Shown here one piece after another: positions 8,747-44,136 of a stretch of 44,136 nt of DNA. The first letter of the stretch is position 1. Each line of letters starts with the position of its first letter. A program made the position numbers and the translations under genes. The notes under the pieces are model-generated. The model saw only the letters and a program-made list of their open reading frames with translations, was not told the origin of the DNA and did no database searches. The stretch spans positions 1 through 44,136 of the forward strand of contig JACRBX010000090.1 of assembly GCA_016219225.1 (NCBI GenBank). The letters run 5' to 3'. Source of the DNA: Deltaproteobacteria bacterium. GTDB lineage: Bacteria > Desulfobacterota > RBG-13-43-22.

Positions 8747-10087
8747 ATGCGGAAACTGATGATCATGGGGGGGAGTCCTGCTTTTCAGGAAAGGCTTTCC
8801 CGTTTTTTTAAGGGCCGCTACGAGGTTAAAATAACCGACTCGGGGGAAGAGGGGTTGTCCTTGCTTCGGGTCTTCAAGCCCCCCATGGTTTTATTGGCTG
8901 CTTATTTACCCGATAGGATCGGGCTGGAAATTCTTAAACACCTTCAACAGGAATTACCTCAATCCAAGACCATCCTCTTTTCCACCCATCAGGATATGAA
9001 TACGACCATTCAGGCCATGAAATTGGGGGCCTACGATTATGTCCAGGAAGATGTCGAGCTCGAAGAGCTGGATCGCAAAATACAAAAGGCCCTTCGGGTC
9101 CTGATTTTAAACGAAAAAATTCCTCCCCTGAAAGAACCGGAGTCCTTTTCCTCACCCGGTTTCACTTTAATCGGCCAGAGCAAGGCCATGCGGGACATCT
9201 ATAAATTTATCGGGCTGATCGCCAATACGACCGCCTCGGTCGGCATTCGGGGAGAGACGGGAACGGGGAAGAAACTGATGGCCCAGGTGATCCATCAAAA
9301 CAGCCCCCACCGGGAAGGCCCCTTTGTCACTGTGGATTGCACCACCATCGTCGAGACCCTCTCGGAAAGTACCCTTTACGGTCACGAAAAAGGATCCTTT
9401 ACCGGGGCGATTGAAAGTCATCGCGGCTTGTTTGAAACGGCCGCCGAGGGAACCATCTTCCTGGATGAGATCGCCGATCTTCCCCTTTCGATGCAGGGCA
9501 AACTCTTGCGTTTTCTGCAGGACAAAGAATATCACCGTATCGGCGGGACTTCTCAAAAAAAATCCAATGCCCGGATCATCGTGGCCACCAACCGGGACCT
9601 CTATCAGGCCATCGCCCAGGGAAAATTCAGGAAAGACCTCTATTACCGGCTTAAAGTCCTGACCGCTTATATCCCGCCGCTGCGGGAACGTCGTGAAGAT
9701 ATCCCTTTGTTGATCCAGCACTTCCTGCACAAATTCAATCGCGACCATCATACCGGCGTTTTAAAGATCGAGGACCGGGCGGTTCAATTGTTGATCGATT
9801 ATGATTGGCCGGGAAATGTGCGGGAATTGGAAAATCTCCTGACCCTGGCCTGCATCCTGGGCAAGGAAGAGGTCATTCTGGAAGAAACGGTCAAAGAGAT
9901 TCTCAACCGCAGCCAACGCCTTCCTCATGATCGACCGCCTGTTTCCTCCCTGGGCGAAGCCGAAGAGGAAATTATAAAAAAGGCTTTAAAAACAGCGCAA
10001 GGCAACCTGACCCAGGCCGCCAAATTGTTAAAAATTTCCCGGCCTACTTTGAGGACTAAAATTCAAAAGTTTCAACTTTCGGTTTAA
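8747..10087 (+). CDS. NtrC-family sigma-54 enhancer-binding protein with a degenerate receiver domain
   Basis: The 446-residue protein has three parts. Residues 1-115 have the layout of a CheY-like receiver but lack its key residues: the acidic pair is G8-G9, the phospho-acceptor Asp in the VLL-D position is A51, and the switch Lys is E101. Residues about 135-375 are a complete sigma-54 AAA+ domain, with Walker A GETGTGKK (169-176), the sigma-54 contact loop GSFTGA (216-221) and Walker B GTIFLDE (235-241). The C-terminal 50 residues form a Fis-type helix-turn-helix (ISRPTLRTKIQKF). It should activate RpoN promoters but cannot be switched by Asp phosphorylation, so ligand binding, a partner protein or simple abundance may control it. 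No sensor kinase gene lies nearby. Two dyads and a sigma-54 promoter just downstream suggest that it drives the 10.4-kb catabolic cluster. Confidence 0.93.
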   Translation: MRKLMIMGGSPAFQERLSRFFKGRYEVKITDSGEEGLSLLRVFKPPMVLLAAYLPDRIGLEILKHLQQELPQSKTILFSTHQDMNTTIQAMKLGAYDYVQEDVELEELDRKIQKALRVLILNEKIPPLKEPESFSSPGFTLIGQSKAMRDIYKFIGLIANTTASVGIRGETGTGKKLMAQVIHQNSPHREGPFVTVDCTTIVETLSESTLYGHEKGSFTGAIESHRGLFETAAEGTIFLDEIADLPLSMQGKLLRFLQDKEYHRIGGTSQKKSNARIIVATNRDLYQAIAQGKFRKDLYYRLKVLTAYIPPLRERREDIPLLIQHFLHKFNRDHHTGVLKIEDRAVQLLIDYDWPGNVRELENLLTLACILGKEEVILEETVKEILNRSQRLPHDRPPVSSLGEAEEEIIKKALKTAQGNLTQAAKLLKISRPTLRTKIQKFQLSV

Positions 10088-10204: not shown

Positions 10205-10220
10205 TGGCATTGAACTTGCT
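10205..10220 (+). promoter_or_regulatory. Sigma-54 (RpoN) promoter
   Basis: TGGCAT-N5-TTGCT matches the -24/-12 consensus, with GG at 10206-10207 and GC at 10218-10219 separated by exactly 10 bases. Transcription would start near 10231 and run into the SDR at 10406 and the phosphotransferase genes behind it. The preceding gene encodes a sigma-54 activator, which supports the call. Confidence 0.7.
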
Positions 10221-10405: not shown

Positions 10406-11158
10406 ATGCGTTTGACTGGTAAAGTTGCACTGGTTACCGGCGCGGCCAAGGGCTTGGGCCGGGCCTTTTGTTTGAGTTTGGCTCGGGAAGGTGCCCGGAT
10501 TATGGCCGTGACCCGTAAGGACCTGGACAACCTGGAGAAAACGGTCAAAATGATCCGCGCTATGGGCGGGGAAGCCGAAATGCTTCAAGCCGATGTGGCT
10601 TTGGAGCCGGATACCAAGGCCATGGCGGAGGAAACGATTAATAAATTCGGCCGCATCGATATCCTGCTCAATAATGCGGCCATTTATGACGGGATCAAAC
10701 GAAAACCTTTTTTTGAGATTGACCTTAAGGAATGGGATTTGGTCATGAACGTGAATGTCAAAGGGGCCTTTTTATCCACCCGGGCCGTTTTCCCGTTCAT
10801 GAAGGATCAGGGATATGGAAAGATCATCAATCTGGCCTCGGAAGTCTTTTTTACCGGTTCCAACGGTTTTGCCCATTACGTGGCCTCCAAGGGGGGTATC
10901 ATCGGTCTGACCCGGGCACTGGCCGTGGAATTAGGACCCCATAATATCTGTATCAATTGCATCGCCCCGGGGTTCACCGATACCGAAGCCAGCCGGGGTA
11001 TCGCCGATGTCACTAAATATGATGTTTCCAAGACCCCGTTAAAGAGATTGGAAAGGCCGGAAGACCTGGTGGGGGCCGCCATTTTCCTGGCTGCTTCGGA
11101 AAGTGATTTTATGACCGGGCAGACGCTGTTGATCGATGGAGGCCGGGCCATGCATTAA
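10406..11158 (+). CDS. Short-chain dehydrogenase/reductase (FabG-like)
   Basis: This 250-residue classical SDR has the cofactor motif TGAAKGLG at residues 11-18, NNAA near 90, the catalytic tyrosine and lysine as Y158-V-A-S-K162, and a C-terminus typical of the family (TGQTLLIDGG). It would interconvert a hydroxyl and a keto group with NAD(P)H, probably on a CoA thioester or a ring alcohol given the neighbours; the substrate is not determined. AGGAAGG precedes the ATG. It is the first gene after the sigma-54 promoter, and 150 bases separate it from the swivelling-His subunit. Confidence 0.9.
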   Translation: MRLTGKVALVTGAAKGLGRAFCLSLAREGARIMAVTRKDLDNLEKTVKMIRAMGGEAEMLQADVALEPDTKAMAEETINKFGRIDILLNNAAIYDGIKRKPFFEIDLKEWDLVMNVNVKGAFLSTRAVFPFMKDQGYGKIINLASEVFFTGSNGFAHYVASKGGIIGLTRALAVELGPHNICINCIAPGFTDTEASRGIADVTKYDVSKTPLKRLERPEDLVGAAIFLAASESDFMTGQTLLIDGGRAMH

Positions 11159-11308: not shown

Positions 11309-12991
11309 ATGAAAGTGTATGATGTCGTCCCCGGTTTGGAATTTGACCCAGAAAGAGATTTTGCCCAATCGCCCGCCTGGTTTCTGGATGGCACCCATTC
11401 CGTCCCGCCCTGGACCCCCATGTTTGGTTGGTTTTGGATCAACTTCTGCCGCCACGGTATGCAATACGGGGCGGAGAAGTTGAGCCTGCCGACGGTCAAG
11501 GGTTGGGATTGGCGTTTCCATAATGGGGGTGGATACCTGACCTTGCTGCTGGTCCACAGCGAGGAGGAAAAACAAAGGCGGGAAGCGGAATTCCGTAAGG
11601 CCATTCTCCCCTTTATCGAAAATTATGATGGATTATGGGGAGGATTTATTAAGGAGATTTTGGGGCGTTATGAAAAACTGAAGGCCCTGGATCTGGACAA
11701 GGCTTCCAACATCGAACTCCTGGACAATTTTGAAGAGACCATCAACACCTGCCGGCGCATGTGGGAAATCCACATGTATATGATGTATGGAACTTATACG
11801 GCCTATATCCTTTTTGAAAATATGTGTCGGGAAATGGCCGGAATCGACGATACCTCGCCGCTCTTTCATAATCTGGTCTCTGGCTTTGACAATAAGGTCT
11901 TCCAGGTGGATCGACGCCTCTGGGAGTTTTCCAAAAAGGCCCGGGAAGATGGATTGGCCGATCTCTTCCTGGAAACCAAACCCCTTGAAATTCAGGGCCG
12001 TCTTCAGGAATCACTCAAGGGCCGGGATTTTATGAAAGACTTCATGGCCTTCATGAACGAAGATGGCTGGCGTATGCAACGCATGTCCGAAATGAATCTG
12101 CCGACCTGGGTGGAAGACCCGACCCCGGCTTTGGTCAACGTCAAACAGTTTCTCCAAAAAGGGGGCGGCTTTAACCTCGAAGAAGAAAGGGGAAAAATTT
12201 CCCGACAGCGCCAAGAGGCGGAAAAGGTGGTTTTGGCCAAGATTCCCCAGGAGCAACGGGGCTGGTTTGAACGCTTGATGGTCCTGGCCCAGAAGAGCGG
12301 GGTCTTCAGCGAAGAACATGATCATTATCTGGACCTGTATACCCATGCCATGATGCGGCGCAGTGCCTTGGGTCTGGGCCGGCGTTTTGCCCAGAAAGAG
12401 ACCATCAACGATGCCGACGATATCTTTTTTCTCATCCCGGATGAGGTTCGTCGGGCCGGAATCAATCCTGATCAGTTTAATCTGCGCTATATTGTGGACC
12501 GGCGAAAAGCCGAGTGGCAGGAATGGCAAAAAACCCCCAACCCCCCGGCCTTCTTAAAAGAGGGTTTTGATCTGGATATGGCCATGGGGGTCCTGGTCCA
12601 ATCGATGGACCCCATTGCCCTGAAGGTCGTCGTCGGTTCCATGCCCCAGGTCCGTCCGGAACTCAAGGCCGATCTGTACGGGACCTGCGGTTCCCCCGGA
12701 GTGGCCGAAGGCCCGGCCAGGGTTATCTTGAACGAAGATGAACTCCATTTGGTCGAACAAGGAGACATCCTGGTGGCGGCCAGTACCTCACCCAGTTGGA
12801 CCCCGGTCTTTTCTATGATCAAGGGCGTGGTGGTCGACCGCGGGGCCAGTCTCTCCCATGCAGCCATTGTCGGCAGGGAGTATGGGATCCCGGTGGTCAT
12901 GAACGTCTTTGAGGGCACGGCCAAGATCAAGTCGGGTCAGCGGATCAAGGTGGATGCCAATATGGGGGCCGTGTTTATTTTAGACAAATAA
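11309..12991 (+). CDS. Swivelling-His subunit of a split PEP-synthase-like phosphotransferase (phenylphosphate synthase alpha-like)
   Basis: In this 560-residue protein the last 110 residues or so are the PEP-utilizer mobile domain. G-S-P-G-V-A-E-G-P-A-R-V lies near 470, and the phosphorylatable histidine is H517 in SLSHAAIVGREYGIP. The first 450 residues are a mostly helical region beginning with W-F-x-D-x-x-H-x5-T-P-M, which a paralogue at 29105-30811 shares. There is neither an ATP-grasp domain nor a PEP/pyruvate-binding barrel. The ATP-grasp half is the next gene but one feature downstream. Together they have the order of modules found in rifampicin phosphotransferase and the split form of phenylphosphate synthase from Thauera (subunits of about 70 and 40 kDa). 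ATP would phosphorylate H517 and the phosphate would pass to a hydroxyl of an unknown acceptor held by the N-terminal region. A strong AAGGAGGAGG site precedes the ATG. Confidence 0.8.
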   Translation: MKVYDVVPGLEFDPERDFAQSPAWFLDGTHSVPPWTPMFGWFWINFCRHGMQYGAEKLSLPTVKGWDWRFHNGGGYLTLLLVHSEEEKQRREAEFRKAILPFIENYDGLWGGFIKEILGRYEKLKALDLDKASNIELLDNFEETINTCRRMWEIHMYMMYGTYTAYILFENMCREMAGIDDTSPLFHNLVSGFDNKVFQVDRRLWEFSKKAREDGLADLFLETKPLEIQGRLQESLKGRDFMKDFMAFMNEDGWRMQRMSEMNLPTWVEDPTPALVNVKQFLQKGGGFNLEEERGKISRQRQEAEKVVLAKIPQEQRGWFERLMVLAQKSGVFSEEHDHYLDLYTHAMMRRSALGLGRRFAQKETINDADDIFFLIPDEVRRAGINPDQFNLRYIVDRRKAEWQEWQKTPNPPAFLKEGFDLDMAMGVLVQSMDPIALKVVVGSMPQVRPELKADLYGTCGSPGVAEGPARVILNEDELHLVEQGDILVAASTSPSWTPVFSMIKGVVVDRGASLSHAAIVGREYGIPVVMNVFEGTAKIKSGQRIKVDANMGAVFILDK

Positions 12992-13116
12992 CCTAAACCC
13001 AAACAAAAAAAAATTTTACCGCCAAGGCCCTGAGAGCGTCGAGTCGACCCCGGGGCCGGGATAGGGATAGTTTGCCCTTGAGGTCCCAGGCGTCTTTTGG
13101 GTGGGGGAATGATTTC

Positions 13117-14139
13117 ATGGGTACGAAATGGCTATTTTGGTTCGAAGAATTAGACAGCGGCCATAACGATCTGGTGGGGAAAAAGTGTGCCAATCTGGGT
13201 GAGATGACCCGGTTAGGCCTGCGCATCCCGCCGGGATTCGCCATATCCGTAGAAGGGTATGAACGGTTTATGGCCGAAACCGGGGCCGGAGAAGAGATCC
13301 GGTGCTACGTCCGGGAAAATCAAGACCATTTAAAGGAAGTCCAGCAGCAGATCAAGGCCAGCCAGGTTATTCGGGGTATTATTGAGTCCAAGGAAATGCC
13401 GCCGGATATGAAAGAGGAATTATTCCGGTATTACGATCAGCTCAAAGAACGGGCCGGCGGAAAAGAGCTTTCCGTGGCCGTTCGTTCCAGCGGGGCCGTG
13501 AGCATGCCCGGTCAGATGGAGAGTTATCTGAATGTTCGCAGGAAAGAATCCGTACTCTTAAAGGTGGTCCAGGTCTGGGGAAGTGCCTTTACCACCCGGG
13601 CCATAGCCTTTCGGCTGGAGAAAGGGATGGCCATGGAAAAGGCCCCCATCGGTATAGCCGTCCTGAAGATGGTTGAAGCCAAATCGGCCGGAGTGGTCTT
13701 GACGGTCCTGCCGACCATCGGAGACCTTTCCAAAGTGGTGGTAGAAGGCAATTGGGGATTGGGTGAGAGCGTGGTCAGCGGGGAGATCAATCCCGATCAG
13801 TTTATTGTAGATAAACATAACGGGACTGTGGAAATGACGATCAATCGAAAAACCAAGATGGTGGTTTATCATAACCTGGGGACCATAACCGAGGATGTGC
13901 CGGTCGAAATTCAGGATAAAGCCTGTGTCGAGCAGGAAGAATTAAAAGAAATCGTACGGGTCGCCAAAGAGGTGGAGGACCATTTCCAATGCCCCCAGGA
14001 TATGGAATGGGTCTTGGATCGCGACAACTCCATTCCGGAAAATCTTTATTGGGTCCAGGCCCGGCCGGCCAAATACGCCAAGGTCAAAGAAAAGGAAGCC
14101 GAATATCTGGCTGAGTTGATGACCCGCTTGTTTAAATGA
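13117..14139 (+). CDS. ATP-grasp subunit of a split PEP-synthase-like phosphotransferase
   Basis: The protein is 340 residues from the ATG preceded by GGGGGAA; an upstream TTG start would add 15 unlikely residues. It corresponds to the PPDK/PEP-synthase N-terminal domain alone, with V-G-K-K-C-A-N-L-G-E-M near residue 15, VRSSGAVSMPGQMESYLNV (about 128-146), the phosphate-binding EGNWGLGESVVSGE segment, DMEWVLD and the closing YWVQARP. It should bind ATP and donate a phosphoryl group to the histidine of the 560-residue partner encoded 125 bases upstream. The size (about 38 kDa) and the separation from the swivelling domain match the small catalytic subunit of phenylphosphate synthase. That enzyme's usual partners, UbiD-like carboxylases and a CBS-domain subunit, are not in the window, so phenol itself should not be assumed as substrate. 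Confidence 0.85.
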   Translation: MGTKWLFWFEELDSGHNDLVGKKCANLGEMTRLGLRIPPGFAISVEGYERFMAETGAGEEIRCYVRENQDHLKEVQQQIKASQVIRGIIESKEMPPDMKEELFRYYDQLKERAGGKELSVAVRSSGAVSMPGQMESYLNVRRKESVLLKVVQVWGSAFTTRAIAFRLEKGMAMEKAPIGIAVLKMVEAKSAGVVLTVLPTIGDLSKVVVEGNWGLGESVVSGEINPDQFIVDKHNGTVEMTINRKTKMVVYHNLGTITEDVPVEIQDKACVEQEELKEIVRVAKEVEDHFQCPQDMEWVLDRDNSIPENLYWVQARPAKYAKVKEKEAEYLAELMTRLFK

Positions 14140-14281
14140 CGGAGACCGTCCTCGTTACTGGTTGCTGGTTGCTCGAAAAAACGAATAACGAGTAACACCT
14201 GACTTTCAAATAGCTTTGGTTATAATTTGTCTCTCACAATTTTATGAGCGGTTTAAGGACCGCTTCGCTTAAGGAGTACGT

Positions 14282-14941
14282 ATGGCCATCCTGTTTGTTC
14301 AACATTGGGATGTGATTCCCGGACAGTTTGATGAATATGCCTCTTTTGTCACCCATAAGTACAACCCGACCCTGCAAAAATTGGGGATACGGTTAGTGGG
14401 CGGTTATTATGTGGCGGTTGGGGAAGGGCCGAGGATTGTAGCGGTGGCGACGGTGGATGAAACCGAGAATTTACGGCAGACCCTTTCATCCAGGGAGTAC
14501 CGGCTTCTTTCCGCCCAATTGCTCGAATATGTCTGGAAATATTGTAATAAGGTCTACGTCCCTACCGGTCGTATCCTGGAAGGCCCTTATCGTATCCAGA
14601 CCGGGGTTTGGAAATTCACCCATTATTATAATATCCTCCGGGGCAAGGAAGAGGAGCATTTGAAGTTTGTCCGGGAAGAGTGTCTGCCGGGGCTGGAAGA
14701 GTTAAAGGTCCCCTTCACCGGGGGCTGGCGTCTGGTGGTCGGCAGCGGACCCAGGATCCTGGCTGAAGCAACGGGGAGAAGTCTCGTGGATATCGCCAAG
14801 GCCATTGATACCGCCCTCTTCAGAAAATTGGTCAGGACCCTGAAGAATAATTATGCCACGGATTACAGCAGCCGGATTCTGGCCCCTACGGGCCGAATCG
14901 AGGTCCCTTACCTCATGAATGAGATGATGAAGAAGTTTTAG
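14282..14941 (+). CDS. Tandem-duplicated ABM/NIPSNAP-like protein of unknown function
   Basis: This 219-residue soluble protein is built from two related halves (about 1-98 and 109-212). Each half has a G-G-(Y/W)-x-x-x-V-G-x-G-P-R-I-(V/L)-A-x-A-T core and ends with (V/A)-P-T-G-R-I. The pattern and length suggest a ferredoxin-like dimeric alpha/beta barrel (antibiotic-biosynthesis-monooxygenase or NIPSNAP type) in which two protomers are fused. It has no obvious metal or cofactor motif. It directly follows the two phosphotransferase subunits and has its own AAGGAG site, so it may be a third subunit or act on the phosphorylated product. In phenylphosphate synthase the third subunit carries CBS domains instead, so this would be a different kind of partner. 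Confidence 0.65.
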   Translation: MAILFVQHWDVIPGQFDEYASFVTHKYNPTLQKLGIRLVGGYYVAVGEGPRIVAVATVDETENLRQTLSSREYRLLSAQLLEYVWKYCNKVYVPTGRILEGPYRIQTGVWKFTHYYNILRGKEEEHLKFVREECLPGLEELKVPFTGGWRLVVGSGPRILAEATGRSLVDIAKAIDTALFRKLVRTLKNNYATDYSSRILAPTGRIEVPYLMNEMMKKF

Positions 14942-15093
14942 TGCGAAAATAAAAATACAAAAAAGATTTTCATGCTTCGATGAATGGGGCGTCAAGAGAA
15001 GTTCGCTTTTTGACCGAAAAAGGGCGATAGGCAGCGAAAGGCAGGATAGATGCACTTTTGGAGAAGCCGTCGGGAAAGACGGAGAGCGTTTTC

Positions 15094-17034
15094 ATGACAC
15101 CAGGAAGAGAATTGTTTTGGGAGATCGGGGAAGTTTGGATCTTCTATGTTATGGCTGTCTTGGCCGTAGGTCTCCTGCTGGTCGGTGTTGCGGCTTATAT
15201 CAATGTGTGGCTAAAAAGCGCACCGGGAAACAGGACCGCTTTTTCACGACAGGCTTTAAAGGAAACCCTTCTGGATACTTTTTTGGGGCGGGGTGCCTTT
15301 AGGGGGGATCTGTCCGCCGGTCTCATGCACTTGTTTATTTTCTTGGGATTTGTCATTTTGTTTATGGGCACGTCCCTGCTGGCCGTACACGAGTATGTGC
15401 ACCCTTACCTGAAGGGCAAGCCCTATCTTTTCTTTGAAGCCTCCATGGAAGCGGGGGGGCTTATCCTCCTGGCCGGCCTTATCTGGGCCCTGGTCCGTCG
15501 GTACCTTCAACGTATCCCGAGGCTCGAACGCAGGCCGGAAGACGCCCTGGTGCCTCTATGGTTGCTCATGGTGATCTTGTCAGGTTTCTTTTTGGAAGGG
15601 GCGAGATTGGCGGCGCAAAAGCCGTCTTGGGCTCATTGGTCCTTTGTGGGGTCATTGATGGCCGGTTTAATCGCCGCTAAGGCGGCAGGGCCGGCCTACC
15701 CCTATCTGTGGTGGGGTCACGCCGTGTTGAGTCTGGGATTCATCGCCCTCATCCCTTTTACCAAGCTGTTTCACATCATCGGAGGACCGGCGGCCTTTTA
15801 CCTCCATCATTCCGCTGGGGAACCAAGCGAAATATCTTTATCGGTTGAGGATGGCGAGGAAGCAGCGGATATCGGCGAGGTCGTATTTTTTGATGCCTGC
15901 ATGCGCTGCGGTCGCTGCGCCCAGGTCTGTCCCTCGGCCGGTGCCGGTGAGCCTTTCGCGCCCCGCGATTTTGTCCAAGCCCAGCGACGAGCCCTCTGGC
16001 AGGAACATTCTCCGATCGGAGACGTCCGCTTTCTAAACCAGGAGCAGCCTATAGACAGCCAGGCGGCTTGGTACTGTACCACTTGCGCCGCTTGTTTGGA
16101 AGTCTGCCCGGTTTACGGGGCGGCCTTCAAAGTGGTCTCCAAAAAAAGGACCCTGCTGATCGAAGAGGGGAAAGATGTGCCCGACTTGATGAACCAGACC
16201 CTGGAAAGGCTTTTTAATTACGAGAATCCCTGGGTGGCCTCCAAGAGGGACAGGGCGGCCTGGGCCAAAGGCCTGGATGTTCCTGTGCTGACCAGGGGAG
16301 GCGATGAGAAACCCCTTTGCTACTTTGTGGGCTGCACGACGTCTTATGATGCCCGGGCCCAGGAAATAGCCAAGGCCTTCACGAGTATTCTGAAACAGGC
16401 CGGTGTCCCCTTCGGGATCCTGGGCGACAAGGAGCCCTGCTGCGGGGACATCGCCCGGGTAGTCGGAGAAGTAGGTCTGTTTCAGGAGAAGAAGGAAAAC
16501 TGCCAGGAGCTTTTTGACCAGTACGGCATCGAAGAAGTGGTGACCTCCTCTCCCCATTGCTTCCACAACTTTCTCAACGAATATTCGGGGCGGCAATTCG
16601 GCGTAAGACCCTATCCTTTGGTCATAAGGGAACTGATCGCCCAGGGGAAGCTTAAATTAAAAAAGTCTGTCAATCTTACCGTGACCTATCACGATCCCTG
16701 CTATCTCGGACGTCACAATCGCATCTTTGAGGAGCCACGGGGAATTATTCGCTCCATCCCCGGCCTGAAACTGATCGAGATGACCCACCATGGTGCCGAC
16801 AGCCTCTGCTGCGGCGGCGGAGGGGGAAGGATGTGGCAAGGGTCGGAATTGCGGGGTGAGGCCAGAATGAGTGAAATAAGGATTAAAGAAGCCCGGGCAA
16901 CCGGGGCGGAGGTCCTGATCACCGCCTGTCCTTTATGTCTCATCATGCTGGAAGATGCCTTAAAGACCGTCGGCTTGGAAGGGCAACTGAAGGTCATGGA
17001 TCTTAATGAATTGGTGTTGCAGTCATTGGAATAG
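15094..17034 (+). CDS. Membrane-bound FeS ETF:(mena)quinone oxidoreductase (EMO/HdrD-like)
   Basis: The 646 residues start at the ATG behind GGAGAG; a TTG 36 bases earlier is also open. The first 235 residues contain about six membrane segments like the haem b subunit of nitrate reductase (NarI-like). Two 4Fe-4S motifs follow, C269-x2-C272-x2-C275-x3-C279 and C328-x2-C331-x2-C334-x3-C338. Then come two CCG domains, with EPCCGD and LCCGGGGG as their landmark cysteines. Proteins of this build sit beside etfBA in syntrophic and sulfate-reducing bacteria and carry electrons from reduced ETF to menaquinone. The etfA and etfB genes follow here, which makes the assignment strong. It should reoxidise ETF loaded by acyl-CoA dehydrogenases such as the one at 35840-36964. 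Confidence 0.88.
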   Translation: MTPGRELFWEIGEVWIFYVMAVLAVGLLLVGVAAYINVWLKSAPGNRTAFSRQALKETLLDTFLGRGAFRGDLSAGLMHLFIFLGFVILFMGTSLLAVHEYVHPYLKGKPYLFFEASMEAGGLILLAGLIWALVRRYLQRIPRLERRPEDALVPLWLLMVILSGFFLEGARLAAQKPSWAHWSFVGSLMAGLIAAKAAGPAYPYLWWGHAVLSLGFIALIPFTKLFHIIGGPAAFYLHHSAGEPSEISLSVEDGEEAADIGEVVFFDACMRCGRCAQVCPSAGAGEPFAPRDFVQAQRRALWQEHSPIGDVRFLNQEQPIDSQAAWYCTTCAACLEVCPVYGAAFKVVSKKRTLLIEEGKDVPDLMNQTLERLFNYENPWVASKRDRAAWAKGLDVPVLTRGGDEKPLCYFVGCTTSYDARAQEIAKAFTSILKQAGVPFGILGDKEPCCGDIARVVGEVGLFQEKKENCQELFDQYGIEEVVTSSPHCFHNFLNEYSGRQFGVRPYPLVIRELIAQGKLKLKKSVNLTVTYHDPCYLGRHNRIFEEPRGIIRSIPGLKLIEMTHHGADSLCCGGGGGRMWQGSELRGEARMSEIRIKEARATGAEVLITACPLCLIMLEDALKTVGLEGQLKVMDLNELVLQSLE

Positions 17035-17310: not shown

Positions 17311-18297
17311 ATGAATGAGCTTTTACTGTTGGTTGAATCCAAAGAGGGATTGCCGGATAAGACAACCCTGGAACTCATACGGGGGGGAAGCGACCTGGCT
17401 AAGGAGTTGGGTATCGACACATCAGCCGTAGTGGTGGGCCATGAAACCCCATCATTAGCAGAATCGGTGGCCTCCTACGGACTGAAGAAGATTTACAGAC
17501 TGGAGCACCCAATGCTTTCAGGTTTTCAACCTGACGCCTGGGTGGGGGCCCTGGAGTGGCTATGCCGGCAAATCGGCCCCCGGATATTTCTCGCCAGCCA
17601 CTCGTTTGTGGGAAAGGAAGTGGCCCCCAGGCTGGCCTGCCGGTTGAAAACGGAGCTCACCACGGATTGCATAGGCCTCAAGATCGATCCCCAGGACGGC
17701 CTTCTTATTCGCACCAAGCCTATTTACGGGGGTAACGCCATCGCCGCCCTGAAGTGCGCCGGCCTTCCTCAGATGGTCACCGTCAGGAAAAATATCTTTG
17801 AGCCCATGGAACCAGTCGATACCCGGAGTGAATTGGTGGACCTGGTTCCCGATCTCGATGAATCGATCATCAAGGTCAGGTCGTTGAAGATTGTCCCGGA
17901 AGAAGTTGTTGAACTGGACAAGGCCCATGTCGTCATATCCGGGGGAAGAGGGGTCGTGGAGAAAGAGGATTTTGACATGCTTAAAGCCTTGGCCGCGGCC
18001 CTGAACAAATCCTCCGGGAATGTGACCATGGTCGGCTGCAGCCGACCGGTGGTTGATAAATGCTGGCTGTCCTCCGACCACCAGGTCGGTTTGACCGGTT
18101 CGATCATTGCCCCGGATATCTATGTGGCCGTCGGGATATCGGGAGCCATTCAACATCTGGTGGGTATGATAAGGTCCAAGAAGATCATTGCCATCAATAC
18201 GGACCCCGGCTGCAATATGTTTAAAGTCGCCGATTACGGCGTTGTGGAAGATTATAAGGTGCTCATACCGGCTTTGGTAAAGAAATTGGAGGAGTGA
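17311..18297 (+). CDS. etfA: Electron transfer flavoprotein, alpha subunit
   Basis: This 328-residue protein has the FAD-binding C-terminal domain of EtfA: V-G-C-S-R-P-V-V-D, then H-Q-V-G-L-T-G, APDIYVAVGISGAIQHLVGM, and INTDP before VADYGVVED. The N-terminal domain is the usual nucleotide-fold half. With EtfB it forms a heterodimer that takes electrons from acyl-CoA dehydrogenases. Its start is preceded only by a modest GAGAGG site. The etfB start follows the etfA stop by 2 bases. The order oxidoreductase-etfA-etfB is coherent, although a REP element sits between the first two. Confidence 0.95.
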   Translation: MNELLLLVESKEGLPDKTTLELIRGGSDLAKELGIDTSAVVVGHETPSLAESVASYGLKKIYRLEHPMLSGFQPDAWVGALEWLCRQIGPRIFLASHSFVGKEVAPRLACRLKTELTTDCIGLKIDPQDGLLIRTKPIYGGNAIAALKCAGLPQMVTVRKNIFEPMEPVDTRSELVDLVPDLDESIIKVRSLKIVPEEVVELDKAHVVISGGRGVVEKEDFDMLKALAAALNKSSGNVTMVGCSRPVVDKCWLSSDHQVGLTGSIIAPDIYVAVGISGAIQHLVGMIRSKKIIAINTDPGCNMFKVADYGVVEDYKVLIPALVKKLEE

Positions 18298-18299
18298 TC

Positions 18300-19094
18300 A
18301 TGAAAGAAATACGCATCATTGTCTGTGCCAAACAGATTCCCGATCCGGAGGCGCCCTTCTCAAACGTTACGGTCAACGTGGAGAAAAAAGAGGTCATCGT
18401 CGACGCCCCGGATGTGATCAGCCCCTACGATGAAAATGCCCTGGAAGCGGCCATCAGGATAAAAGAAGAGGTGGGGGGAAAGATAACCGTCTTGAGCCTG
18501 GGCCGGAAGGTTTCGGATACGGTCCTGCGAAAGACCCTGGCCGCCGGGGCCGACGCCTTGATCCTTATTGAAGATCCGGCCTTCGAGAGGCTTGACAGTA
18601 ATTCCGTGGCCTACGTGCTTTCCCGGGCGATCCAGAAGATCGGCGAGTATGATCTTATCCTGACCGGGAGACAGGCGGGAGACTGGGACTCCGGGCAAGT
18701 AGGTTTGATCCTCGCTGAAATGCTGGGCATTCCGACCATCAGCCTGGCCCGTTCGATAAAGGTGGACGATGGCCGTGTGCTGGTGGAAAAGACCATCCCC
18801 GTGGGCTATGAGGTGGTCGAGGCAGGACTGCCGGCCCTGGTTACGGTGAGTAATGAGGTGGGGGAGCTGCGCTACGTTTCCAGAACCAGGATGATGGGCC
18901 TCCTGAAACGGCCCATCCCCATACCGAAATGGGGGTCCAAGGACCTGGTCACTGACCTGGAAATCCTTAAGAAGGTGCAACTTATCGAGCTGTCACCGCC
19001 CCCGGACATGAGGCGGGAGTGTGCGTTTATAGAAGGGGCATCGCCTGAAGATAAGGCGGACAAGCTGGCCGCTGTTTTCAAAGAAATCGGATGA
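18300..19094 (+). CDS. etfB: Electron transfer flavoprotein, beta subunit
   Basis: The protein is 264 residues from the ATG placed 7 bases after GGAGG; a GTG two codons earlier overlaps the etfA stop and is a less likely start. EtfB features are present: V-C-A-K-Q-I-P-D-P near the N-terminus, S-P-Y-D-E-N-A-L-E-A-A-I-R, G-R-Q-A-G-D-W-D-S-G-Q-V-G (AMP/adenosine-binding region) and the recognition-loop area P-A-L-V-T-V-S-N-E-V. It is the partner of the gene just upstream and interacts with the dehydrogenases. Confidence 0.95.
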   Translation: MKEIRIIVCAKQIPDPEAPFSNVTVNVEKKEVIVDAPDVISPYDENALEAAIRIKEEVGGKITVLSLGRKVSDTVLRKTLAAGADALILIEDPAFERLDSNSVAYVLSRAIQKIGEYDLILTGRQAGDWDSGQVGLILAEMLGIPTISLARSIKVDDGRVLVEKTIPVGYEVVEAGLPALVTVSNEVGELRYVSRTRMMGLLKRPIPIPKWGSKDLVTDLEILKKVQLIELSPPPDMRRECAFIEGASPEDKADKLAAVFKEIG

Positions 19095-19366: not shown

Positions 19367-21007
19367 ATGGCTGACAAAGTTTACGATGCGGTAATTATCG
19401 GAGGAGGACATCACGGAACGACCATCGCTCCTTACCTGGCCAAAGCAGGCCTGAAGGTCGGGGTCTTTGAGCGCCTGGATCATTTGGGTGGCGGAGCGGT
19501 CACGGAAGACCTCCCCGCTCCCGGATTTCGCGGGAATTTCTGCGCCCATTTTACCCGCTACTACGGCCACCCAGCCTATAAGGAATTCAATCTTCGAGAG
19601 GAAGGACTGGAATACACCTTCCCGGACACCAACGAAGCCATCATCTTTGATGACGAGACCAGTTACGTGGCTTATGCGGCCTTTACGGTGATCGATCCCA
19701 TGACGGGCGAATCACGGTTTAATGAAGGAAATGTTAGAAAGACTTACGATCAGATCGCCCGGTTTTCCAAAACCGATGCGCAGACCTATCTCGATCTGAC
19801 CGAAAAATATAAAGATAAGTGGCGAGTCGCTTACCATAAGTATCGGTATTCGCCTCCCACTCCCTGGGGAGTACCAGACCCCCTGGAAGCGCTTTTTGAC
19901 GATCCTAAAAGCGGCCTGGATCTCCCCATGCAGTTTATGACCTGTAAGCAATTAGCCCGTTATTTCTTCGAAAGTGATGAGCTGCGCATATTAACTTTGA
20001 GGGGATTTCTCACCTCCTGGGGTTGTTTTCCCGATGATATTCCCGGTATCGCCATTGCCATCGCCACCATCCATCTGACCTTGGGCTGGGAACCGGCCGC
20101 CATTGCCAAGGGCGGCACCCAGGCCATCACCAATGCCCTGGTTTCCGCCGGAAAGAAGCTCGGCATAGAGTATACCCTGAATTCCGAAGTCCAAAAAGTC
20201 CTGATCGAAAACGGCCGGGCCGCGGGCATCAAGCTCATGGACGGCACGGAGGTTTCCGCCAGGCAAATGGTGGTGTCGGACAATGCCTCCCCGCAGCTCT
20301 TTTTAAGGTTGATCGGCGAAGACCGGATCACAGAAGAGATGAAGCGGAAGGCCCGGGTCTACCAGTTCGACCGGGGCGAGCTTTTTTGGGGAACGGTGGG
20401 GGTCCACGAACTGCCGCAGTACAAAGCCGCCAGGGATAACCCCGACGTCAACGCCACCCCCCGCACTTATTTCGCCCCCAAGGATCTCGGGTTCATGGAA
20501 GACAAGTACATGCATGAGATTTTCCTTTTCGGCATGCCCTCCAAGATGTTCATCCTGACGGCCCCCGACAGCATCTGGGACCCCAGCCGGGTGCCTGAGG
20601 GGAAGCATTCCCTGCATGTCGAAGAGTTCACCTGTCCGGCCCGGTTGTTTTCCCGGAAGGAATGGAAACAGATGACCCTGGAATTTGTGGACGTGCTGTT
20701 CGAGCGCTGGGCGGAGTATGCTCCCAATATGACCAAAGACAACCTGATTGTTCACCGCATCACCAACCCGGTCGATATCCAGGACACACACCTGGACATG
20801 AAGGAAGGAGGTTGGTGCGAAGGCAACTGCAGCGGTGTTCAAAATGGTCGTTTCAGGGGGGTCCCCGGGGGATATCGGACCTTTGTCAAGGACCTCTATA
20901 TGTGCTCATCCGGCGTCTATGGCGGGCCGGGCATCGGACGGGGCTCGAGTTATAACTGTTATAAACTCATTGCCGAAGACCATGGGCTGCCGGCCCCAAA
21001 ATATTAG
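19367..21007 (+). CDS. FAD-dependent oxidoreductase, phytoene-desaturase (CrtI)-like family
   Basis: This 546-residue protein has an N-terminal dinucleotide-binding motif, V-I-I-G-G-G-H-H-G, followed by F-E-R-x-D-H-L-G-G-G-A, typical of CrtI/carotenoid-type and related amine-oxidase-like flavoproteins. Near the C-terminus, G-V-Y-G-G-P-G-I-G-R-G fits the second FAD contact. Such enzymes desaturate, isomerise or reduce hydrophobic substrates. In this neighbourhood a ring compound or long-chain acyl compound is possible, but no carotenoid genes are present. GGGAGG precedes the ATG. It is followed by the molybdenum hydroxylase, suggesting paired redox steps. Confidence 0.8.
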   Translation: MADKVYDAVIIGGGHHGTTIAPYLAKAGLKVGVFERLDHLGGGAVTEDLPAPGFRGNFCAHFTRYYGHPAYKEFNLREEGLEYTFPDTNEAIIFDDETSYVAYAAFTVIDPMTGESRFNEGNVRKTYDQIARFSKTDAQTYLDLTEKYKDKWRVAYHKYRYSPPTPWGVPDPLEALFDDPKSGLDLPMQFMTCKQLARYFFESDELRILTLRGFLTSWGCFPDDIPGIAIAIATIHLTLGWEPAAIAKGGTQAITNALVSAGKKLGIEYTLNSEVQKVLIENGRAAGIKLMDGTEVSARQMVVSDNASPQLFLRLIGEDRITEEMKRKARVYQFDRGELFWGTVGVHELPQYKAARDNPDVNATPRTYFAPKDLGFMEDKYMHEIFLFGMPSKMFILTAPDSIWDPSRVPEGKHSLHVEEFTCPARLFSRKEWKQMTLEFVDVLFERWAEYAPNMTKDNLIVHRITNPVDIQDTHLDMKEGGWCEGNCSGVQNGRFRGVPGGYRTFVKDLYMCSSGVYGGPGIGRGSSYNCYKLIAEDHGLPAPKY

Positions 21008-21096
21008 TTCGAAAATAAGGTTTGTTTATGTAGCACAGCCGCCCTCGGATGTTTCCACTAACAACAGGCGTTTGAAAATATGATTTGGGGGGTACC

Positions 21097-23751
21097 ATGC
21101 AGGAGATAAGTTTCCGACTTAACGGGGTCCGAAGGAAGGTAATTACCGATCCTCAAAAGAAACTCTTAGAGGTGATTCGGAAGGACCTGAAGCTGGTTGG
21201 AACCAAAGAGGGTTGCTCGGAGGGATATTGCGGCACCTGCACGGTGCTGTTGGACGGAAAGGCCACGCTGGCCTGCCGGGTGCCCGTATCCAAGGTGCAG
21301 GGACGGTCGGTGACCACCATCGAAGGTCTGGGCACGATTGACCGACCCCATCCCCTGCAACTGGCCTTTGCCAGGGCCGGGGCCATTCAATGCGGGTTCT
21401 GCACACCGGGCCTGATCCTCCGTTCCAAGGCCCTCCTCGATGAAAACCCGAGACCCGAACGGCCGGAAATTGAAAAGGCCCTCCAACCCCATCTTTGCCG
21501 CTGTACCGGTTATCAGAAAATCTTCGAGGCCGTCGAATTGGCGGCCTCGGTCCTGAGAGGGGAAACAGGTCCCATTTCTCTCAAAACAGAAGGAGGACTC
21601 ATCGGAAAACCGGTGGTCCGGATCGATGCCTTAGAGAAGGCTACCGGTACGGCCCTCTACGCTGATGATATCGCTGTTGACGGCTGCTGCTTCATGAAGG
21701 TCTTGAGGAGCCCTCATCCTCAGGCCCGAATTCTAAAAATAGACAAGAGGGAGGCCGGGCAGGCCGCCGGGGTGGTGGCGGTCCTGACGGCCGAGGATGT
21801 GGGCGGGACCAATATCCTGAAGATGGCCGGGGACGATCAGCCGCTGCTCTGTAAGGACAAGGTCCGGTTTATAGGGGACCCCGTGGCCGCCGTGGTGGCC
21901 CTATCCGAGGGGGAGGCCTTACAGGCCCTTGATTTAATCCAGGTGGTCTACGAGCCGCTGGAACCGGTGCTGACCCCCTGGGAGGCGCTGCGGGAGGGGG
22001 CCCCGAAGGTGCATGACGACCGGGGTAACCTGTTTTTTCAACAGCCGATTATTTTTGGTGAGGCCGGAAAGGGTTTCGCGGAGGCCGATTTTACCGTCGA
22101 GGCGAAATATACGACCCAGACGGTTGATCATGCCTACCTCGAGCCGGATACGGGAATCGCTTTTATCCATGAAAACGGCCAACTGGTGATTATCTCGGGA
22201 AGCCAGAATATCCACGCCCATCGGAAAACAATCGCCGGGGCCATCGGACTTTCCATCGACCAGGTGCGGGTGATCCAACCGTCCATGGGAGGCGCCTTCG
22301 GCGGGCATCTGGACGTCTCGGTCGGCGGTCTTCTGGGCCTGGCCGCCTGGAAACTGAAGAGGCCGGTGAAGCTGGTCTATACCAGGAAGGAGACCTTCCA
22401 GGCCACGACCAAGCGGCATCCCTTTTACCTGGACCTGAAAATCGGGGCCGCGAAGGACGGCACTTTTACCGGCCTGCAAGGTGAGGTGTTAGTCGATGGC
22501 GGGGCCTACAAGTCTTTTTCCAACAGCGTCACCACCCGGGGTCTGGCCCATGCCAGCGGGCCCTACCGGTTTCCCCAGGCCCATCTTCTGGGAAAAGCGG
22601 TTTACACCAACACGGCCGTCCGGGGGGCCATGCGGGGGTTCGGTGTACCCCAAACGATTTTCGCCCTCGAATCGGCCATTGATGAACTGGCCTTGAAAAT
22701 GGAAATCGACCCGCTGGAACTGCGTCTCAAGAATGCCTTTGTCCCGGGCGATGTAACCATCTGCGGGCAGACTCTGGTGGGCGCCTTTGGGTTCCGGGAA
22801 TGTTTGGAAACCCTGCGGCCTCTTTACCTTCAGGCCCTGAGAGAGGCGAAAAATAATGGAGACGACGGGGTGAAACGCGGAGTCGGACTGGCCGGCATCT
22901 GGTTCGGGCCAGGCCGCAGCGCCCCCGATCAATCCGAAGCCTGGGCCGAGCTGTTGCCGGATGACCGGCTGCAGATTTGGATCGGTGCCGCCGACATGGG
23001 CCAGGGAGCAGAAACGCTTTTCTGGCAGATCGCGGCCGAGACCATGGGCTTTCCCCTTGAACGGGTCCTGATTTGCACCACCGATACCCGATTCACACCC
23101 GACGGTAATTTTTCCGCGGGCAGTCGTCAGACCTATGTCTCGGGCCGGGCGGTCCAAATGGCGGTCGAGGAATTGAAAAAAACCATGGGGGGTAACGGGG
23201 CCCACAGTTATGAACAAATGAAAGCCAAGGGTTTGCCCATCCTCTTTAAGGCGGTCAACCGGCCGGAAACGACCAAGTTGGATCCCCAAAATGGTCATGG
23301 CGTACCCTGGGAGACATACTCCTTCGGAGTCCAGATGGCGGAAGTGGCCGTGGAGGTGAAGACCGGCAAGGTAAAGGTGTTGAAGGTGACGGCGGTGAAT
23401 GATCTGGGCACGGTAATCAACCGGCAGATTGTGGAGGGGCAGATCGAGGGGGCGATCGTGATGGGCCTGGGCTATGCCTTGACCGAGGAGTTTGTTTACA
23501 ACGACACCGATAGTTTTGCCAAATTCCGGATCCCCCGGGCCAAGGACACCCCCCGGATGAAGGTGATCACCCTGAACATCCCCAGGGAGAAAGGCCCTTT
23601 CGGGGCCTCGGGCGCGGCGGAATATGCCGATGCGCCCACGGCCCCGGCCATTATGAATGCTATTGCCAATGCCTGCGGGGCCCGTATCCGGGACCTGCCG
23701 GCAACGCCTGAAAAGGTCAAAGAGGCATTGGGGGATATTGGACGCAGATGA
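21097..23751 (+). CDS. Mop-type molybdenum aldehyde oxidoreductase (2x[2Fe-2S] plus Moco, no FAD domain)
   Basis: The protein is 884 residues from the ATG after GGGGGG. The plant-type [2Fe-2S] cluster uses C40, C45, C48 and C60. The second cluster uses C99, C102, C134 and C136. The molybdopterin domains follow, with G-G-A-F-G-G, R-G-A-M-R-G-F-G, A-D-M-G-Q-G-A-E and GPFGASGAAE, whose E842 is the expected catalytic glutamate. Fusion of FeS and Mo parts without the FAD domain of xanthine dehydrogenase is the architecture of Desulfovibrio gigas Mop (907 residues), whose first cluster, from memory of that protein, has the same cysteine numbering. It would oxidise an aldehyde to an acid or hydroxylate a carbon next to a hetero-atom, passing electrons to a ferredoxin- or flavodoxin-like carrier. 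Its last codons run into a repeat-like sequence (23740). Confidence 0.9.
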   Translation: MQEISFRLNGVRRKVITDPQKKLLEVIRKDLKLVGTKEGCSEGYCGTCTVLLDGKATLACRVPVSKVQGRSVTTIEGLGTIDRPHPLQLAFARAGAIQCGFCTPGLILRSKALLDENPRPERPEIEKALQPHLCRCTGYQKIFEAVELAASVLRGETGPISLKTEGGLIGKPVVRIDALEKATGTALYADDIAVDGCCFMKVLRSPHPQARILKIDKREAGQAAGVVAVLTAEDVGGTNILKMAGDDQPLLCKDKVRFIGDPVAAVVALSEGEALQALDLIQVVYEPLEPVLTPWEALREGAPKVHDDRGNLFFQQPIIFGEAGKGFAEADFTVEAKYTTQTVDHAYLEPDTGIAFIHENGQLVIISGSQNIHAHRKTIAGAIGLSIDQVRVIQPSMGGAFGGHLDVSVGGLLGLAAWKLKRPVKLVYTRKETFQATTKRHPFYLDLKIGAAKDGTFTGLQGEVLVDGGAYKSFSNSVTTRGLAHASGPYRFPQAHLLGKAVYTNTAVRGAMRGFGVPQTIFALESAIDELALKMEIDPLELRLKNAFVPGDVTICGQTLVGAFGFRECLETLRPLYLQALREAKNNGDDGVKRGVGLAGIWFGPGRSAPDQSEAWAELLPDDRLQIWIGAADMGQGAETLFWQIAAETMGFPLERVLICTTDTRFTPDGNFSAGSRQTYVSGRAVQMAVEELKKTMGGNGAHSYEQMKAKGLPILFKAVNRPETTKLDPQNGHGVPWETYSFGVQMAEVAVEVKTGKVKVLKVTAVNDLGTVINRQIVEGQIEGAIVMGLGYALTEEFVYNDTDSFAKFRIPRAKDTPRMKVITLNIPREKGPFGASGAAEYADAPTAPAIMNAIANACGARIRDLPATPEKVKEALGDIGRR

Positions 23752-43557: not shown

Positions 43558-44136
43558 TTATTCTTCTTTAAGATTTTTTATATTTCTGCTTTGCAGGATA
43601 AATAAATTTCCCTTTTCGTAAGCCCATTCGATGTCCTGAGGGACACCAAACAATCCTTCTATCGTAATCCCGATTTGACCCAATTCCTGCACCTGGTCAT
43701 CCGAGAGAGTAGGTCTGTCCATTAGGTCGGGATTCACAGTGATCTCTTTCCTTCCAACCCCTTTTTCTTCGTCAAAGCAAACCATAACCGTCTTTTTGGC
43801 GATCTTCTTTTGTTTTATCTTAAGGGTTGCTTTATCCAATGAGAAAAAATCGTTCATGGATTTGCCGGAAACAACCGATTCGCCCAACCCCCAATTGGCT
43901 TCAATGACCATCTCTTTTTGGCTGCTGGTTATCGGGTTGGCGGTAAATAAAATGCCGGCCACCTCGGGATTAATCATTTTCTGAACGATCGGGGCGATCA
44001 ACCCCAGATGATGGTCAATTTTTTTATGATAACGGTTAAAAGTCGCCCTCGAAGTCCACAAGGAAGCCCAACACAGTTTTATGTGCTTCAGGATCTCCTC
44101 CCTTTCTTTCAAGTAATGGAAGGTATCCATCATTCC
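43558..44136 (-). CDS. ATP-grasp subunit of a split PEP-synthase-like phosphotransferase (partial, N-terminus beyond window)
   Basis: About 192 C-terminal residues of a PPDK/PEP-synthase N-terminal domain are visible. They enter at G-M-M-D-T-F and continue through C-W-A-S-L-W-T-S-R-A, A-G-I-L-F-T-A-N-P, E-A-N-W-G-L-G-E-S-V-V-S-G, P-Q-D-I-E-W and the closing L-F-I-L-Q-S-R. The protein ends about where the ATP-grasp domain ends, as does the copy at 13117-14139, so this too is a separate ATP-binding subunit and not a full PEP synthase. Its swivelling partner is either beyond the window or the orphan subunit at 29105-30811. The true start is not in the window. Confidence 0.85.
   Translation of the reverse strand, partial: GMMDTFHYLKEREEILKHIKLCWASLWTSRATFNRYHKKIDHHLGLIAPIVQKMINPEVAGILFTANPITSSQKEMVIEANWGLGESVVSGKSMNDFFSLDKATLKIKQKKIAKKTVMVCFDEEKGVGRKEITVNPDLMDRPTLSDDQVQELGQIGITIEGLFGVPQDIEWAYEKGNLFILQSRNIKNLKEE

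Follow-up and report, generated by a model that had tools for sequence, protein, structure and literature searches.

The dikinase mechanism of phenylphosphate synthase (PpsAB), the hydroxyphenylethanone dikinase HpeHI and the rifampin phosphotransferase RPH is established (PMC12167813), that of RPH being given also in PMC4844700. The characterised phenolic kinases have all been reported as phosphoenolpyruvate (PEP) synthase type (PMC12167813), congruent subunit trees were reported for the characterised kinases of the HpeHI type (PMC9618137), and a swivel motif, T/SxxGGxxxH, is described for the characterised dikinases, its requirement not being established by mutation. The Cre alkylphenol operon of Corynebacterium glutamicum, which encodes the two-component kinase CreHI, has the gene order creJ-I-H-G-F-E-D-C (PMC7764795). 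Here, we describe three consecutive genes, termed HIS1, GRASP and ABM, from an uncultured deltaproteobacterium (assembly GCA_016219225.1). The stretch analysed, hereafter the window, is the entire contig JACRBX010000090.1 of 44,136 bases (C90 in our numbering) from a genome of 5.9 Mb in 353 contigs that is 99% complete. We consider it fairly probable that HIS1 and GRASP are the two components of a small-molecule dikinase with ABM as an accessory subunit, acting in an O2-independent route of the Cre type. Domain make-up, fold, the conserved histidine, gene adjacency, clade and the homology of a neighbouring short-chain dehydrogenase (SDR1), an HD-domain hydrolase and, at other loci, an aldehyde dehydrogenase (ALDH) to Cre-operon proteins were computed; from these we infer the dikinase chemistry, the substrate class, the order of the steps and the roles of ABM and of a flavoenzyme, CrtO.

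Results

The original prediction, made from the letters of the DNA, described a swivelling-histidine protein with a large unassigned region, a lone ATP-grasp domain and a tandem ABM/NIPSNAP-like protein, encoded by consecutive genes at positions 11309 to 14941. All three open reading frames were found there on the forward strand, and each description was borne out by profile searches and structure prediction. HIS1 (11309 to 12991) encodes 560 amino acids, and its sole Pfam match is the PEP-utilizers mobile domain (PF00391, 3.7e-22) at residues 483 to 553. The AlphaFold2 model (pLDDT 89.1) has RPH-Lm (5fbu) as its best Foldseek match, over the full length (TMq 0.67, 17% identity); a sequence search of the PDB with HIS1 also matched RPH-Lm, and the remaining Foldseek matches (TMq 0.19 or less) point to the swivel domain. 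Since no other structure matches over the full length, the region left unassigned by the original prediction is, judged by the model, a helical substrate domain of the RPH type (about residues 1 to 450), followed by the swivelling phospho-His domain (about 455 to 558). HIS1 thus carries the substrate and swivel domains on one chain, as RPH does, together with a catalytic swivel histidine: this is His517 (codon 12857 to 12859), the predicted phospho-acceptor, which is invariant in 51 aligned members of the family. The family motif around it is DRG[AG]SL[SA]H (VDRGASLSH in the window), the canonical TDxGGxxxH being found in PpsA proteins, in CreH and in a second swivelling-histidine protein of the window, HIS2. 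The PEP/pyruvate TIM-barrel domain was not found in the Pfam search. In NCBIfam, HIS1 and GRASP match models named "phosphoenolpyruvate synthase" and "rifamycin-inactivating phosphotransferase", every score falling far short of the curated cut-off, and existing family models recognise the kinase genes of this system merely as weak relatives of PEP synthase.

A scan of genome contigs gave 55 HIS1 loci (58 to 94% identity to HIS1), all from metagenome-assembled genomes (MAGs); the system is widespread in uncultured Thermodesulfobacteriota, from which most of the loci come, and occurs in a few Chloroflexi, Actinomycetes and Proteobacteria. Neighbourhood counts given below derive from related contigs and are therefore not independent; pathway genes were counted over the 26 long loci. 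A tree of 65 proteins (quick search, long branches) separates HIS1 from PpsA, including the PpsA proteins of UbiD clusters, by a branch with an SH-aLRT of 100, and on this basis HIS1 is a distinct clade among the two-component small-molecule dikinases PpsAB, CreHI and HpeHI. One Chloroflexi MAG (L049, 10001 to 12511) has an 837-residue reading frame in which the HIS1 substrate domain (residues 3 to 433) is joined to an AFOR-like tail and the swivel domain is lost, perhaps an assembly chimera or a deletion. As this was the sole long reading frame, a HIS1/ATP-grasp fusion was dropped as proof of pairing.

GRASP (13072 to 14139, forward strand) is listed with 355 amino acids; its true start is probably the ATG at 13117 (340 amino acids), because homology begins there. 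It consists of PPDK_N (PF01326, 6.7e-84) and lies 3' of HIS1 in 45 of the 47 loci with room for it, the window included, so that a separate ATP-grasp chain is encoded beside HIS1 as in the known two-component dikinases. Dozens of contigs repeat the gene order of the window (58 to 93% identity), far above chance. GRASP is 36% identical both to Rhodococcus CreI and to Azoarcus PpsB, and its counterparts at other loci reach 48% identity to the Rhodococcus protein. Its nucleotide loop (VRSSGAVSMPGQMESYLNV) and that of most ABM-linked partners are short and of the PPDK type (SGAVSMPGQMESYLN); the genome's own PPDK-like protein reads SGARKSMPGMMETVLN. In the loop comparison, the loops of Azoarcus PpsB and Rhodococcus CreI are of the long PEP-synthase type, which is reported for the characterised dikinases and which the window GRASP lacks, a difference that matters because the characterised phenolic kinases have all been assigned to that type. 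The short loop tracks ABM (38 of 41 ABM-linked pairs versus 5 of 18 pairs without ABM, uncorrected for kinship). PpsB proteins of the same phylum have it as well (L146 to L149, L153 and L154). The GRASP partners of HIS1 fall into more than one clade in a midpoint-rooted tree with long branches, and congruence of the HIS1 and GRASP trees was not found; HIS1 has therefore, we tentatively suggest from these trees, probably exchanged its ATP-grasp partners.

ABM (14282 to 14941, forward strand; 219 amino acids) has no Pfam match at 0.001, NIPSNAP alone appearing at 0.033. Its model (pLDDT 91.4) comprises two successive dimeric alpha+beta barrel units, and the two halves are mutually homologous (hhalign probability 100%, E 4e-41, 30% identity). 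The nearest folds in Foldseek are putative monooxygenases, anthrone-oxidase-like proteins, coproheme decarboxylases and chlorite dismutase, at 8 to 14% identity; a PDB sequence search gave only weak, meaningless matches, and ABM was not found in viral contigs. In 42 HIS1 loci, the slot after GRASP holds ABM in 26, a single-domain response regulator (REC) in 7 and neither in 9, and never both. The seven REC loci are one clade in the HIS1 tree, and the replacement of ABM by REC therefore counts as few events. A survey of the phylum covered 395 genomes: HIS1 is present in 27, ABM in 42 and both in 22, i.e., ABM is present in 22 of 27 genomes with HIS1 and in 20 of 368 without (Fisher 5e-20, uncorrected for kinship). 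The co-occurrence elsewhere, on which the original prediction had staked the partnership, is thus found, and its statement that the third partner is not the CBS-domain subunit of phenylphosphate synthase also stands, because no CBS-domain gamma subunit is present in the window and the ABM barrel occupies its slot. PpsC-like CBS proteins occur in 4 of the 26 long HIS1 loci, one of them 37% identical to Azoarcus PpsC.

The idea that ABM is peculiar to this system has to be given up, since it also stands beside ordinary PpsAB-UbiD pairs. Of 16 ABM sites away from HIS1, 11 have ABM immediately 5' of a gene of the PpsA type, in many cases accompanied by PpsB and UbiD. The window genome itself has two PpsAB pairs on contig C329, each beside its own UbiD; one of them has an ABM gene (37% identical) directly upstream of PpsA, and the other has a response-regulator gene downstream of PpsB. 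ABM is therefore a general partner of two-component kinases in this phylum, and since it is common to kinases of different downstream chemistries, its role is likely to be linked to the kinase. No mention of ABM as a partner of these kinases was found in the literature searched. In Desulfatiglans anilini, a homologue of the CBS gamma subunit is encoded away from the phenol cluster and shows no induction, and the gene with locus tag 02053, unnamed in the text, lies between ppsA and the gene for the small subunit of 4-hydroxybenzoyl-CoA reductase (PMC6114531). This is the position where ABM would be expected. Further tandem-ABM paralogues, 24 to 30% identical to ABM, lie between SDR1 and AFOR at some HIS1 loci (L015, 6471 to 7788; L008, 536 to 1784; L052, 7147 to 7764).

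The genes around the kinase fit a catabolic operon. A sigma-54 activator (REC-AAA-Fis by domain search; 8747 to 10087, forward strand), presumably the operon regulator, is encoded upstream, as it is in L001, L003 and L005. A -24/-12 promoter predicted from its pattern (TGGCATTGAACTTGCT; 10205 to 10220, forward strand) precedes SDR1, and TGGYAYN5TTGCT is found 71 to 202 bp upstream of SDR1 in all five loci checked (the window and four relatives); across the window, the pattern is not above chance, and only its conserved position counts. SDR1 (10406 to 11158, forward strand) is a CreG-like short-chain dehydrogenase. Downstream of ABM follow, all on the forward strand, an HdrD-like membrane protein with CCG, Fer4 and Nitrate_red_gam domains (15058 to 17034), probably an electron transfer flavoprotein (ETF):menaquinone oxidoreductase, EtfA (17311 to 18297) and EtfB (18294 to 19094), both assigned by domain search, CrtO (19367 to 21007), a flavoenzyme of the phytoene-desaturase superfamily and kin of the limonene dehydrogenase CtmAB and of delta-24 steroid desaturase, and a molybdenum aldehyde oxidoreductase-like protein (MoAOR; 21085 to 23751). 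The HD-domain hydrolase (PF01966; 7903 to 8547, reverse strand) is CreD-like, and its set of metal ligands is kept in 27 homologues. Of the long HIS1 loci, 23 encode flavoenzymes resembling CtmAB and delta-24 desaturase, 22 have SDR1, 22 have an aldehyde oxidoreductase drawn from one of three different families (AFOR, molybdenum or ALDH) and 17 have the HD hydrolase. The flavoenzyme is accompanied either by ETF (9 loci) or by a second flavosubunit, CrtO2 (14 loci), never by both (chance, 7e-5). CrtO2 has the motif GF[LI]HNTHA, in keeping with the covalent-flavin motif G-F-L/R-x-N/S-T/L-H-A published for enzymes of the CtmAB type (PMC11061730).

Two further genes recur at HIS1 loci. An ARMT1-like damage-control phosphatase is encoded downstream of the kinase in many of them (L031, 5959 to 6894; L027, L012, L015 and others) and may be what removes the phosphate at loci that lack HD. 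In 13 loci (L011, 6929 to 7309, and relatives), CrtO2 and CrtO are separated by a gene for a 127-residue protein that matches no Pfam family and is perhaps a small subunit of the flavoenzyme. UPF0261 proteins (PF06792/PF23189) recur beside both PpsAB-UbiD and HIS1 clusters (L080, 12643 to 13905; L081, 16673 to 17908; L013, 1559 to 2860).

The closest comparison for the downstream genes is an operon on the Rhodococcus plasmid pRB98 (L165) with the order P450-ATPgrasp-PEPutilizer-SDR-Fdx-FdR-HD-ALDH (Fdx, ferredoxin; FdR, its reductase). This order agrees with that of the C. glutamicum cre genes, and by gene order and annotation the operon appears to be of the Cre type. Identity to its proteins is 45% for SDR1 (up to 57% at other loci), 27% for HIS1 and 31% for the HD hydrolase (38 to 41% at other loci), and six other HIS1 loci have a CreC-type ALDH at 35 to 39% identity. 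Homologues of the kinase CreHI, of CreG and of CreD are thus found together at HIS1 loci. The HD hydrolase is the most telling Cre counterpart: among 72,556 plasmids (7.3 billion bases), the HD protein of locus L021 matches just two records, both from Rhodococcus and both with Cre-type operons. Homologues of the Rhodococcus cytochrome P450, ferredoxin or ferredoxin reductase, the system formed by CreJEF, were found in none of the HIS1 loci, and the HIS1 operon is therefore Cre-like rather than the Cre pathway.

The window genome is unusually rich in RPH/PEP-synthase-like enzymes. A second split dikinase, overlooked by the original prediction, is encoded on the reverse strand of the same contig: HIS2 (29105 to 30811; 568 amino acids, 29% identical to HIS1, with the canonical motif TDTGGMLTH) and GRASP2 (43558 to 44136), which is truncated by the contig end. 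Between and around the two are genes for a HAD phosphatase, an amidohydrolase, an old-yellow-enzyme-like protein, an AMP ligase, a short-chain dehydrogenase, an acyl-CoA dehydrogenase and two Liv-type ABC transporters. About 10 more single-chain proteins with ATP-grasp and swivel domains, mostly of 830 to 880 amino acids, are encoded on contigs C10, C173, C213, C220, C234, C275, C299 and C353.

Discussion

By analogy with the established mechanism of PpsAB, HpeHI and RPH, GRASP would bind ATP and hand the beta-phosphate to His517 on the swivel of HIS1, which would then turn to the substrate domain and phosphorylate the substrate, a hydrophobic and probably phenolic compound, at its hydroxyl group. 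As an accessory kinase subunit, ABM may stand in for the CBS gamma subunit that phenylphosphate synthase has. The CtmAB-like CrtO could then oxidize an alkyl carbon of the phosphorylated substrate without O2, the electrons leaving via ETF and the iron-sulfur membrane protein; SDR1 would oxidize the resulting alcohol to an aldehyde, MoAOR would carry this on to the acid, and the HD hydrolase would take off the phosphate at the end. These genes are most simply read as a Cre-type route whose oxygen-dependent step has been replaced. The anaerobic catabolic setting that had been foreseen is upheld by the ETF genes and by a 6-oxocyclohexene-carbonyl-CoA hydrolase of the benzoyl-CoA pathway, which is encoded in the window genome and scores above its cut-off, making aromatic catabolism in the host plausible. 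A hydroxylated substrate also still fits; what had been left as an unknown compound is narrowed by the homology of SDR1, HD and ALDH to proteins of alkylphenol degradation.

Several observations weigh against this reading. The swivel motif of HIS1 departs from the published T/SxxGGxxxH, and HIS1 is only 24 to 29% identical to PpsA and CreH. ABM is missing from the slot in 16 of 42 HIS1 loci and is therefore not essential in all of them, and UbiD homologues lie near HIS1 in 2 of the 26 long loci. The SDR family is huge, and an unrelated Pseudoalteromonas SDR scores as well as the Cre SDR does, so that the identity of SDR1 is weak by itself. In the window, the HD gene lies upstream on the opposite strand, the aldehyde enzyme is MoAOR and not a CreC-type ALDH, and CrtO reads GFRGNFCAH, with a cysteine at the expected flavin-linked histidine. 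Finally, CtmAB-type enzymes are known to act on allylic substrates, not on phenolic phosphates.

One alternative, which we regard as unlikely, is that phosphorylation activates a (tertiary) alcohol group of a terpenoid- or steroid-like compound for elimination. Loss of the phosphate would give an alkene whose allylic methyl group is then hydroxylated by the flavoenzyme, much as the cholesterol side chain is oxidized anaerobically. CtmAB and delta-24 desaturase do work at allylic positions (PMC4109377, PMC11061730), SDR and aldehyde oxidoreductase would be logical next steps, and a 25-hydroxysteroid kinase acting with a putative lyase offers a precedent (PMC8449060). However, that kinase bears little resemblance to the phosphotransferases described so far and follows a sequential mechanism with ADP as a product; being unrelated, it was rejected as the same enzyme. 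Moreover, there is no lyase candidate, ABM also partners PpsAB, whose product is carboxylated and not eliminated, and the CreD-type phosphohydrolase favours hydrolytic removal of the phosphate. The benzene-activation clusters of ORM2 and BzS1 were rejected as the same system, kinase terms being unmatched in the published text. Quite improbable is a phenylphosphate synthase that supplies a UbiD-type carboxylase encoded elsewhere. The two-component architecture is the same, ABM is common to PpsAB clusters, and the genome has four UbiD genes, although none lies in the window, as the original prediction had noted. Two of the four belong to the PpsAB clusters of contig C329, and because these pairs already have their own UbiD, and HIS1 falls in a separate clade, the HIS1-GRASP pair is very probably not phenylphosphate synthase; UbiD is rare near HIS1, whose conserved neighbours are oxidative. 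The original prediction is retained for a split RPH-type phosphotransferase and corrected in that the pair belongs to a clade separate from phenylphosphate synthase. Hardly credible is a drug-inactivating rifampin-type phosphotransferase or an ordinary PEP/pyruvate dikinase: RPH is the nearest solved structure and the NCBIfam names point that way, but their scores are far under the cut-offs, the TIM barrel is lacking and the catabolic operon context is constant.

Compatible with a dikinase formed by HIS1 and GRASP is the possibility, doubtful in our view, that ABM is a catalytic enzyme of the pathway, e.g., a lyase or an oxygen-independent oxidoreductase, and not a kinase subunit. The ABM fold does include enzymes, the anthrone-oxidase-like proteins, coproheme decarboxylase and chlorite dismutase among its Foldseek neighbours being cases in point, but the low identity to them is uninformative on function; ABM tracks the kinase pair across the differing chemistries of UbiD and HIS1 clusters, and a REC protein replaces it in one clade. 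A further extension of the Cre-type route seems rather unlikely as a whole, namely, that in uncultured anaerobes the hydroxyl group is masked by a Pi-dependent, pyrophosphate-forming dikinase, to which the tandem ABM protein belongs as a new subunit, and that a CtmAB-like flavoenzyme replaces the cytochrome P450 on the phosphorylated alkylphenol (or a similar compound). Pyrophosphate formation is suggested by the PPDK-type loop of GRASP, which is common to ABM-linked PpsB, and by a membrane H+-pyrophosphatase encoded in the genome; it is weakened by the "GED" segment of PPDK, which reads GES in GRASP, as in PEP synthase.

If the proposed route is true, anaerobes would have an equivalent of the P450-dependent Cre pathway that combines a phosphate protecting group with flavin-dependent C-H oxidation without oxygen. 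ABM, REC and CBS proteins as alternative third partners would also offer a testable alternative for the unsolved role of the gamma subunit in phenylphosphate synthase.

Comparison with known systems

With the Cre operons of C. glutamicum and pRB98, the HIS1 loci share a two-component kinase, a CreG-like SDR, a CreD-like HD hydrolase and, in some loci, a CreC-like ALDH in one cluster. They differ in that cytochrome P450, ferredoxin and reductase give way to a flavoenzyme accompanied by ETF or by a second flavosubunit, in the distant clade (27% identity) and length of HIS1 (560 versus 610 amino acids), in the extra ABM or REC partner and in an aldehyde step carried out by MoAOR, AFOR or ALDH. 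The flavosubunits resemble CtmAB and delta-24 steroid desaturase, which have two subunits of the phytoene-desaturase superfamily, and CrtO2 of related loci has the histidine motif for covalent flavin; unlike CtmAB, the window has the CrtO-type subunit only, with cysteine at the flavin-histidine position and ETF partners. Phenylphosphate synthase PpsABC also has split His-swivel and ATP-grasp proteins and, in this phylum, an adjoining ABM gene, whereas the window pair has no adjoining UbiD or CBS gamma gene, belongs to a separate clade and has a HIS1 that is about 50 residues shorter. HpeHI is likewise a two-component RPH-type dikinase with a phospho-His mechanism, from which the window pair differs by the lack of a biotin carboxylase context, by the swivel VDRGASLSH in place of T/SxxGGxxxH and by the PPDK-type ATP-grasp loop. 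RPH itself is a single chain with an antibiotic as substrate and is 17% identical in the structural match; once GRASP and HIS1 are joined, however, the domain set and the module order are the same (TMq 0.67).

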